A stretch of DNA of 64,000 bases. Source: Actinoplanes sichuanensis. GTDB lineage: Bacteria > Actinomycetota > Actinomycetes > Mycobacteriales > Micromonosporaceae. How positions within the stretch are numbered: position 1 is the stretch's first letter; the number at the start of each line of letters is the position of its first letter. Made by a program: the position numbers and the translations under genes. Below, piece by piece: positions 44,705 through 47,501 of the stretch. The notes beneath the pieces are model-generated. The model ran no database searches. It was not told where the DNA came from and worked only from the letters and a program-made list of their open reading frames with translations. Where the stretch lies: the NCBI RefSeq assembly GCF_033097365.1, contig NZ_AP028461.1:10133501-10197500 (forward strand), given 5' to 3'.

Positions 44705-46624
44705 TCAGAGCAGCGTCATCTGGGCGTTGGACGGCGCCGGAGTGGGCGTCTGGCGGGCGGTGGCGGGCGACGGGTTGTGCAGGCCGTGACGGCGGGCCGC
44801 CATCCGCACCCGGGCGCCGATCTCGTCCTGATAGGCCCGGGGCAGGTAGGAGCCGTTGCCGAACAGCTCCCGGTATCGCGGCCGGAGCTCCGGATGCTCC
44901 CGACCGATCCACGACGCATACCACTCGCGGGCCCCCGGCCGCAGGTGCAGCGGGATCGGCGTGACCCCGGTGGCACCGGCCGCCGCGATCTCCGCCACCG
45001 TCTCGTCGATCGACTCCTCGGTGTCGGTGAGGCCGGGCAGGATCGGGGCCATCAGCACACCGACGCGGAATCCGGCGTCGGTGAGTCGGCGAACCGTCTC
45101 CAGCCGGCGGCGCGGACTCGGCGTGCCGGGCTCGACCGAGCGCCAGATCGTCTCGTCCACGAAGCCGATCGAGAAGGCCAGGCCGACCCGGGTCACCTCG
45201 GCAGCCTGCCGGAGCAGATCGAGATCGCGCAGGATCAGGGTGCCCTTGGTCAGGATCGAGAACGGGTTGGCGTGGTCGCGCAGCGCCGCCAGGATCTCCG
45301 GCATCAACCGGTAGCGCCCCTCGGCCCGCTGGTAGACGTCCACATTCGTGCCCATGGCGATCGGCGCGCCGGACCAGCGCGGGGCGCCCAACTCGCGGCG
45401 GATCAGCTCACCGGCGTTGACCTTCACCACCACGCGGGTGTCGAAGTCGTGACCGGAATCCAGGTCGAGGTAGGTGTGCGTGTTGCGGGCGAAGCAGTTG
45501 TGGCTGACCACTCCGTCGGCGATGAAGTCGCCGGTGCCCGTCGAAATGTCGAAGAGCGGCAGGGTGAGGCCGAGTTCCTCGATGTCGACCACGGCGAGCC
45601 GCCGCTCCCGGCGCACCCCCACCCCGGAGGCGTCCAGCGCGCTCATCGAGGCCCCGGTCAGGTGCCGGAACCGCAGAGCGGCCTCCAGATGCCGCTCGGT
45701 CTCCACCCGGCCGACCATGCCCGGTCGCAGCGGCCCCGGCCCGCGAGCGGCCAGCCCGAGATGGGTCAGCGCCTCCGCGATCCGGCGCAGGTAGGCCGCG
45801 TCGCCGCAGGCGAACGTGACGGCGAGCCGGTCGGTACGGCCGACCGCGCCGAACGCGCCAGCCAGGAAGCCCCGGAACCAGTCGCCGGTCGGGATCTCGG
45901 GCCACCGGACCGCCTCGGTCAGCGAGACGTCGTCGAGATAGCCGTCGGCCCGAACCCAGGCGTCGCTCTCCGCCGCCGTTCCGCCGTCCGCGGCGTCCCC
46001 CCGGACCAGGCCGCAGACGAACCCGGACTGGTAGTCGGGTGACTCCTTGGGCGGGTCGGCGAACCGGCCCACCCCGAACATCAGGTCGCCGATCGCCAGA
46101 GCCGGCAGGTGCGGCTCGGCGGGGCTGACGTGCCGCCAGCCCCGGTCGGTCAGGAACCTGTGGTCGCCGCTGCCGACCAGCCGGGTGCCGTCGGCCAGGG
46201 TGACCCGGAAGGCGGGCTTGCTCGTCTCCCAGTGGTCGAGCACGGTGGTCGGCACGTAGCGGCGGTGCGCCCCGGCGCCCATGGTGCCCATCACCGCGTC
46301 GCCGGGGCGGATCTGCGCCAGCGGCCGCGTGGAGCCGTCGGCGAGCAGGATCGGCGTGTCCCCGGCCAGGCAGTAGGTGCAGGCGTGAGAGCAGCCGCGA
46401 TAGGGGTTGACGGTCCACTCGAACGGCACCCGTGACTGCCCCGGAACCCGGTTGATCAGGGATTTCGCGCGCACCTCGTAGAAGGTCATGCCCGCGAACC
46501 CGGGCGTGTCGAAGGTGCGGACTGTCGCACCGGGCAGCACCGGCAGCAGGGGTGGAGCCGCCGGCGCCGCCCTGTCCAGGAGCGTGGCGTCACCGGGCCG
46601 AGCCGACAGATTGGACCATCGCAT
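44705..46624 (-). CDS. Intein-containing Rv2578c-family radical SAM protein
   Basis: Precursor of 639 aa; after protein splicing the extein enzyme would be 347 aa, the length of Rv2578c homologs. The 4Fe-4S motif CSHACTYC is cut before its third cysteine: residues 78 and 82 are in the N-extein, and residue 85 is intein Cys1. Cys377, first residue of the C-extein (CFARNTHTYLDLDSGHDF), restores the cluster motif. The extein continues with the SPL-like radical SAM barrel (VDVYQRAEGRYRLMPEIL, ILTKGTLILRDLDLL, GLAFSIGFVDE). Without splicing the enzyme cannot bind its cluster normally. Substrate is unknown. ATG 46624 begins MRWSNLSARPGD; upstream in-frame codons lack a ribosome site. Confidence 0.9.
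   Translation of the reverse strand: MRWSNLSARPGDATLLDRAAPAAPPLLPVLPGATVRTFDTPGFAGMTFYEVRAKSLINRVPGQSRVPFEWTVNPYRGCSHACTYCLAGDTPILLADGSTRPLAQIRPGDAVMGTMGAGAHRRYVPTTVLDHWETSKPAFRVTLADGTRLVGSGDHRFLTDRGWRHVSPAEPHLPALAIGDLMFGVGRFADPPKESPDYQSGFVCGLVRGDAADGGTAAESDAWVRADGYLDDVSLTEAVRWPEIPTGDWFRGFLAGAFGAVGRTDRLAVTFACGDAAYLRRIAEALTHLGLAARGPGPLRPGMVGRVETERHLEAALRFRHLTGASMSALDASGVGVRRERRLAVVDIEELGLTLPLFDISTGTGDFIADGVVSHNCFARNTHTYLDLDSGHDFDTRVVVKVNAGELIRRELGAPRWSGAPIAMGTNVDVYQRAEGRYRLMPEILAALRDHANPFSILTKGTLILRDLDLLRQAAEVTRVGLAFSIGFVDETIWRSVEPGTPSPRRRLETVRRLTDAGFRVGVLMAPILPGLTDTEESIDETVAEIAAAGATGVTPIPLHLRPGAREWYASWIGREHPELRPRYRELFGNGSYLPRAYQDEIGARVRMAARRHGLHNPSPATARQTPTPAPSNAQMTLL
45497..46372 (-). mobile_element. 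Intein (292 aa) with decayed LAGLIDADG endonuclease
   Basis: Residues 85-376 of the precursor. Block A is CLAGDTPILLADGS, block B VGSGDHRFLTDRGW, block F LPLFDISTGTGDFIADG, block G VVSHN followed by Cys. So Cys1, block-B His, the penultimate His, terminal Asn and +1 Cys are all present and splicing should work. Between B and F lie remnants of a LAGLIDADG homing endonuclease: VCGLVRGDA (203-211) keeps the catalytic Asp210, while the second motif LAGAFGAVG (254-262) has Val261 in its place. The two motifs are only about 50 residues apart, closer than usual. Mobility is probably lost. Confidence 0.88.
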
Positions 46625-46750: not shown

Positions 46751-47212
46751 TCAGCTACGGCCGGCTGCCGTCGCCTCTTCCTTGGTCGGCTCCTCGGCGG
46801 CCGCGGTGGCCTTCTCCGGCTCGGCGGCCTCGGCGGTCTCGCCGTGCGCGGCCTTGCGGTGTGCGGCCATCTGGTCGCGCACCTCGTCCATGTCGAGCTC
46901 CTGAACCTTCTCGATCAGGCTCTCGAGCGAGGACTCGGGGAGTGCGCCGGGCTGGGCGAAGACCACGACGCCGTCGCGGATCGCCATGATCGTCGGGATC
47001 GACCGGATGTCGAACTTGGCGGCGAGCAGCTGCTCGGCCTCGGTGTCGACCTTGCCGAAGGTGATCTCCGGGTGCTTCTCCGAGGAGCGCTCGTAGGTCG
47101 GCGCGAAGCGGACGCAGGGCCCGCACCAGCTGGCCCAGAAGTCGACCAGGACGATGCCGTCCTTGTTGGTGACCTCGTCGAAGTTCGCTGTGGTCAGCGT
47201 AACCGTCGCCAT
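46751..47212 (-). CDS. trxA: Thioredoxin with acidic Ala/Glu-rich tail
   Basis: Thioredoxin-fold protein (153 aa). Active site VDFWASWCGPCVRFAP, cis-Pro segment DIRSIPTIMAIRDG, both typical. The C-terminal 45 residues (KAAHGETAEAAEPEKATAAAEEPTKEEA) are an acidic Ala/Glu/Lys tail not found in classical TrxA. ATG 47212 with GGAGG 4 nt upstream. No thioredoxin reductase is adjacent, so it may be a secondary thioredoxin in thiol repair. Confidence 0.92.
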   Translation of the reverse strand: MATVTLTTANFDEVTNKDGIVLVDFWASWCGPCVRFAPTYERSSEKHPEITFGKVDTEAEQLLAAKFDIRSIPTIMAIRDGVVVFAQPGALPESSLESLIEKVQELDMDEVRDQMAAHRKAAHGETAEAAEPEKATAAAEEPTKEEATAAGRS

Positions 47213-47501
47213 GATGCCTCCGTCTGCGGGAATCGCTTTCGTCGGGTGAAACTCCGGGTACCCGTTAGTCATTCCCGTACTGAGTGCCGCGACACGTGGC
47301 GTGCGGCACGTTCCGGGTTTCACACCCGCAAACGACACGGGCGCCTCATCGTAACGGATAGTAGGCGCTTGGTGTCTGTTTGCTGACACGATCGAGACGC
47401 CACTTCGTTGATTGATCGTATGATCTAGGCGATATGCCCAGGCTACCCGCCGCCAATGGGAGCGATCCCGAGTGTGGGCCGAAATAGTTAACTAACCTAA
47501 A

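Follow-up and report, generated by a model that had tools for sequence, protein, structure and literature searches.

The locus described here raises a question that can be tested: can an intein come to depend, for splicing, on an endonuclease that is dead? It lies in a stretch of 64,000 nucleotides of the Actinoplanes sichuanensis genome (contig NZ_AP028461.1, positions 10,133,501 to 10,197,500; hereafter the window), where the gene for a radical S-adenosylmethionine (SAM) enzyme of the Rv2578c family is interrupted, within its iron-sulphur cluster motif, by an intein with a catalytically incomplete LAGLIDADG endonuclease. We consider it very probable that this element is a cis-splicing class 1 intein that is fixed in its clade, dead for homing and inherited vertically, and whose endonuclease remnant stays folded and constrained. 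Purifying selection acts on the remnant, for which the best reading is a structural role within the intein; the cause of that selection would be the need of the splicing domain for a folded insert.

The 12.1 Mb genome of A. sichuanensis, assembled as one contig, holds a single copy of the host gene. The insertion point follows Tyr84 of the host protein and precedes its third cluster cysteine, and the CX3CX2C motif of the spliced host is made up of Cys78, Cys82 and Cys377. An initial annotation, made by a model from the sequence and its reading frames, had described an intein with all splicing residues, inserted exactly before this third cysteine; every coordinate and residue that it gave checks out (Table 1), with Cys78 and Cys82 N-terminal and Cys377 C-terminal of the intein. 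The class 1 residue set is complete (Cys1, block-B His, block-F Asp, a His-Asn end and a +1 nucleophile), and splicing is expected from these residues to follow the class 1 scheme (PMC10663303). The block-F Asp, residue 275 of the intein, is invariant across 76 aligned inteins drawn from 122 long ones. Where block B usually has TxxH, 143 of the 149 distinct inserts surveyed below have Ser and the other 6 have Gly.

The assignment to a family is firm. NF038136, the model for intein-containing Rv2578c-family radical SAM proteins, matches the precursor with 881.7 bits against a cut-off of 700 over model positions 1-574 of 574, and NF038135, for Rv2578c-family radical SAM proteins, with 518.5 bits against 430; many among the 120 relatives listed carry the NF038136 name in NCBI. 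General intein models score under their cut-offs (TIGR01445, 22.8 against 24.5 bits; TIGR01443, 12.6 against 15.6; PF14890, 16.6 against 35.8), and a profile search of the whole genome with PF14890 gave no match. At another genome locus (6428638-6429474, minus strand), a frame of 1833 amino acids has a weak match, of 55.7 bits over positions 72-350, to the intein portion of NF038136 and may encode a different sort of Hint-domain protein.

Structure prediction gave a confident Hint domain carrying a folded insert. The intein model matches the TliVMA, PI-SceI and PI-PfuI structures over its full length, with a large root-mean-square deviation (about 13-16), and also the LAGLIDADG domain of WhiA (PDB 3hyj; Foldseek E value 5e-4), and both the Hint and the LAGLIDADG fold are recognised in it. 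In a model of the full precursor the mean predicted local distance difference test (pLDDT) score is 76.5, and the residues flanking the intein (77-83 and 378-396) fall below 50; as weak evidence, these low scores are compatible with a cluster loop that may be unformed before splicing.

Occupancy of the insertion site was surveyed in 272 loci, the window included, of which a motif script parsed 269; some assemblies were present under two labels, and the script demanded the -3 and the third (or +1) cysteine, so that counts of those cysteines are partly built in. Empty alleles, which the initial annotation had proposed to look for in related genomes, were found at 73 of the parsed loci, and the other 196 carry an insert. 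The three unparsed loci (L103, L250 and L271), which enter no other counts unless stated, were read separately: two are empty, one has an insert running from Cys to HN before a cysteine, and the cluster cysteines are kept in all three. Cys1, the block-B His and the HN end are present in all 149 distinct inserts, which comprise 27 mini-inteins (143-171 amino acids), 23 inteins that retain both acids of the endonuclease, 38 other degenerate forms and 61 of the Actinoplanes motif type. One of these last (L166) lies outside the Actinoplanes clade on the host tree and was dropped from it after the all-pairs calculation reported below. The empty, intact-endonuclease, degenerate and mini-intein states thus all occur at one site. 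The host gene itself exceeded the cut-off in 165 of 393 genomes of a class sample and in 166 of 200 of a family sample; in one genus of the latter (g2), a manual count of spans gave 22 empty, 15 occupied and two undetermined among 39 matching genomes.

The history of these states was followed on a quick host tree (159 sequences, 316 columns, one support value). Presence and absence of the intein need 28 changes on this tree; for the label 'empty', at least 11 are imposed by its starred branches. Intact inteins occur here and there beside empty alleles, with 13 changes for 15 rows (29 of 500 shuffles gave a count this low), a pattern expected of recent invasion. The 40 Actinoplanes rows form one starred clade (96), and all carry a degenerate full-length intein. 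Across Actinoplanes, this full-length form exceeds the cut-off in 66 of 67 genomes and the remnant is deleted in none of the 66; the 67th is a decayed host gene in which the intein frame has stayed open. The fixation that the initial annotation supposed is therefore borne out. Two clade inteins are longer than the others, L115 with 374 and L123 with 334 amino acids; L123 has a stretch rich in Ser, Gly and Thr past block E, and the loop after block E therefore tolerates insertions.

An active endonuclease of this type has one acid per motif, and the window intein has Asp210 in the first and Val261 in the second. The same loss runs through the clade: among its 60 distinct inteins the second block-E acid is always replaced (by V, T, I or A) and the first is always G, A or S, while the block-C Asp is kept in 59, against 37% of the other degenerate inteins. 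When profiled together with intact relatives (32 sequences), the remnant aligns with PI-PfuI (E value 4.4e-6) and I-DmoI (9.8e-5), and in this profile the block-C Asp falls on their GDG position and the second block-E acid on the AEG position, whose acids we take to be the catalytic residues of I-DmoI. The window remnant alone, searched against the PDB by sequence, gave nothing relevant and one weak unrelated match (E value 0.82); PF14528 was matched in 59 of the 76 inteins scanned (of the 122 long ones) and not in that of the window. The initial annotation had read the second catalytic acid as lost and the element as no longer mobile. The first point is confirmed, and the clade-wide loss of that acid supports the second: to judge from its sequence, the window intein can probably no longer spread.

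The retention of Asp210 could instead mean that the endonuclease is half active, keeping this residue for DNA binding or nicking and with it some residual mobility, and the near-constancy of the block-C Asp in the clade is what such a function would predict. Block E, however, lacks either acid in 60 of 60 inteins, and the Actinoplanes rows are a single lineage on the host tree. Three genomes (G546, G568 and G609) also contain, beside the intein-bearing copy, an additional host-gene paralogue that has diverged and lacks an intein (L272, L273 and L274); it has stayed uninvaded, although its site has diverged. We regard residual activity as highly improbable. The empty paralogues were also considered as proof of immobility in their own right and rejected, because the site DNA of a diverged paralogue differs.

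While an acid required for catalysis has been lost, the remnant has been conserved. Ratios of nonsynonymous to synonymous substitution rates (dN/dS) were preferably estimated by NG86 over disjoint pairs and with the MG+F3X4 codon model. Over 30 disjoint pairs, dN/dS for the clade remnant is 0.228 (bootstrap 95% interval 0.184-0.270), against 0.91-1.40 in a neutral simulation, and the two splicing halves give 0.112 and 0.100; the value for intact endonucleases is 0.366 (10 of 11 disjoint pairs usable) and for other degenerate ones 0.545 (19 pairs). The codon model, run with kappa fixed at 1 and giving omegas lower throughout than the pairwise values, returned 0.117 for the endonuclease part in the clade, 0.125 in intact and 0.189 in other degenerate inteins, with 0.059, 0.101 and 0.140, respectively, for the splicing part. 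For the clade remnant the log-likelihood is -10859.7 compared with -11951.3 at omega = 1, and omega = 1 is far poorer in every group. All-pairs dN/dS values for the endonuclease part (clade 0.41, with L166 then counted in it; intact 0.42; other degenerate 0.96) are less trusted because distant pairs saturate; by the same all-pairs measure the clade C-extein gives 0.21. Along the remnant, the ratio of the proportions of nonsynonymous and synonymous differences (pN/pS) in 20-residue windows is 0.15 at 106-125, a stretch that takes in most of block C, and 0.20 at 166-185, the block E window; residues 121-140 give 0.29, and values between 181 and 230 run from 0.34 to 0.49. Of the 150 positions in the remnant, 67 show at least 95% identity within the clade. 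The term 'dying endonuclease' in the initial annotation is not supported by this result: the remnant evolves under purifying selection and has been deleted in no genome of the 66. A dead nuclease domain that is neither decayed nor deleted in one clade is not predicted by a simple homing cycle.

We propose the following history. A cis-splicing intein in the CX3CX2C motif would leave the N-extein to give two cluster cysteines and the +1 Cys to give the third. The ancestral element presumably homed by means of a two-motif LAGLIDADG endonuclease; survey and tree together suggest that fixation took place in the common ancestor of Actinoplanes and its clade, that the second-motif acid was lost there, and that the element then descended with the host gene. 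Degeneration following fixation is established for inteins (PMC8966425, PMC3229294). The intein would persist because the cysteine motif is restored only by exact excision, and the dead endonuclease would remain folded within it, most likely because the splicing domain depends on the folded insert for stability or efficiency.

Several observations weigh against this proposal. The remnant evolves at about twice the rate of the splicing domain, which means some relaxation. Other degenerate inteins are also non-neutral (0.545 over disjoint pairs and 0.189 in the codon model; 0.96 over all pairs), so the Actinoplanes clade is not alone in constraining a dead domain; a common cause, namely that an insert must fold for splicing to occur, is more likely than a new function specific to the clade. 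The 27 distinct mini-inteins found at the same site in other genera retain the splicing residues without an endonuclease domain, which is therefore dispensable in principle. Host and intein distances correlate highly in every group (0.68-0.89), and this correlation was rejected as a mark of vertical inheritance since it is not confined to Actinoplanes. Finally, one of the 67 genomes (G593) has lost the host motif while the intein reading frame stayed. In this copy (L275; A. derwentensis protein P0017), the cluster motif is broken and the intein ends in SHP followed by Gly. As a neutral control, it was tried and set aside: its branch counts of synonymous and nonsynonymous codons are few and outgroup-dependent, with no clear rise.

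The same relative bears on the suggestion that the window gene is itself broken, with an intein that does not splice and a dead enzyme, since G593 is in just such a state. In the window, by contrast, the splicing and cluster residues are all intact, and the low dN/dS of the clade's splicing halves (0.10-0.11) and C-extein argues against a gene out of use. We find this the least credible of the readings weighed here.

A plain selfish leftover, of no use to the host and with a useless remnant, is a more serious competitor, to which we give somewhat better than an even chance. On this view the constraint reflects no more than the damage that a misfolded insert would do to splicing, and exact deletion is too rare to occur. 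The location of inteins in conserved sites is established, and such sites tolerate precise removal only (PMC2814812); the constraint on degenerate inteins elsewhere in the family and the coexistence of all states of the homing cycle agree with it as well. The absence of any deletion derivative among the 66 Actinoplanes genomes fits it less well, though mini-size inserts exist in other genera. This reading and that of a remnant serving the structure of the intein differ only in degree, and our confidence in the two overlaps.

Table 1. Features of the precursor locus and the neighbouring gene, in window positions
Feature	Position	Strand	Details
Precursor	44708..46624	-	639 aa; intein-containing Rv2578c-family radical SAM protein
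N-extein	46373..46624	-	Residues 1-84
CSHACTYC	46370..46393	-	Cluster Cys78 (-7) and Cys82 (-3); intein Cys1 (Cys85) at third-ligand place
Intein	45497..46372	-	292 aa, Cys1 to Asn292
N-terminal splicing half	46085..46372	-	Blocks A and B
Block B	46160..46171	-	SGDH, including His155
LAGLIDADG endonuclease remnant	45635..46084	-	Intein residues 97-246; conserved, catalytically incomplete
Block C	45992..46012	-	GLVRGDA; Asp210 retained
Block E	45839..45871	-	GFLAGAFGAVG; Gly259 and Val261 replace both acids
C-terminal splicing half	45497..45634	-	Blocks F and G; invariant block-F Asp359; SHN end
C-extein	44708..45496	-	Residues 377-639; +1 Cys377, then FARNTH
Thioredoxin gene	46751-47389	-	TIGR01068, 97.2 bits (cut-off 96.8); directly upstream of precursor gene, same strand

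The position of the intein has a consequence for the enzyme. Because the third cluster cysteine is the +1 residue beyond the intein, splicing must precede an authentic 4Fe-4S site, and from this anatomy cluster formation would be gated by splicing. Cys82 stands at -3 to Cys1, which is the geometry of a MoaA-type redox trap; in the MoaA intein of Pyrococcus abyssi, a native disulfide between Cys-3 and Cys1 controls splicing (PMC3922620, PMC10663303). By analogy, redox control of splicing through Cys82 and Cys1 is a fair hypothesis. The redox bond of the Mycobacterium smegmatis DnaB intein is internal (Cys48-Cys118) and is no direct parallel (PMC6195587).

It is a further step to suppose that such control is a checkpoint under selection, in which a Cys82-Cys1 disulfide, or a metal bound by Cys78, Cys82 and Cys1, delays splicing until conditions suit the oxygen-sensitive enzyme. 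The -7, -3 and third cysteines are present in 75 of 75 empty loci (73 parsed by the script and two read separately), where they are retained for the cluster, and their conservation therefore says nothing for a selected switch. The presence of the intein also changes often in other genera. Of 45 clade loci, 44 have a thioredoxin gene upstream, as do 23 of 35 other intein-bearing loci, yet 10 of 20 empty alleles also have it no more than 3 kb upstream (at 0.4 kb, at 0.9 kb and, in eight, at 2.3-2.5 kb), and for this reason the linkage was rejected as a sign of redox control. The spacing typical of the clade, about 0.4 kb, is shared by one of these 20 alleles; the gene was seen in none of 26 empty class loci, which are distant and have only about 1.5 kb of flank, so that this count says little. 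We therefore think a selected checkpoint unlikely, and the effect of a Cys(-3)-Cys1 disulfide may be a by-product of the site rather than an established function. Distinctly less probable still is a fully domesticated intein that serves as a checkpoint for oxygen or iron, in which splicing requires the dead endonuclease, and Cys1, by completing the cluster motif of the precursor, senses metal or disulfide state; were this true, the enzyme would be released only once a 4Fe-4S cluster could be built. All 60 distinct clade inteins share a cysteine at intein residue 120 (46013-46015, minus strand), in the first LAGLIDADG helix. The figure is 61% for intact inteins and 53% for the other degenerate group, and this cysteine could be a redox partner or reflect mere descent.

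In summary, one site in Actinomycetota displays every stage in the life of an intein; the host tree shows numerous changes there, and many species have been sequenced. The combination of this intein with an Rv2578c-family enzyme has already been named by NCBI, and NF038136 describes the same host and the same combination as the window protein; the present work adds the range of stages that the site displays, and the findings that the second acid is lost throughout the clade and that selection acts on the remnant. Our literature search for an intein in Rv2578c, or for Actinoplanes or radical SAM inteins, found no work treating this one, most subscription journals lying outside its coverage.

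The window intein can be compared with several known systems. The free-standing protein WhiA (PDB 3hyj, DUF199) shares the LAGLIDADG fold without being part of an intein, and is presumably a LAGLIDADG protein that was turned into a regulator in Actinobacteria. In the PhoVMA intein (PDB 7qst), which also has a degenerated endonuclease, the acids are gone from both motifs and block E is truncated, whereas the window intein keeps the block-C Asp and a block E of full length without acids. The PRP8 inteins of euascomycetes have, as here, a long vertical inheritance with the endonuclease under purifying selection, but the PRP8 endonuclease is functional while the window remnant is without an acid needed for catalysis (PMC1654191). 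The P. abyssi MoaA intein shares with ours the Cys at -3 and Cys1. It is archaeal, sits in another host enzyme and has redox control demonstrated, which for the window intein is a hypothesis. MoaA is a radical SAM enzyme. The intein inside the iron-sulphur motif of the Actinoplanes protein may be a bacterial counterpart of this redox-trapped archaeal intein.
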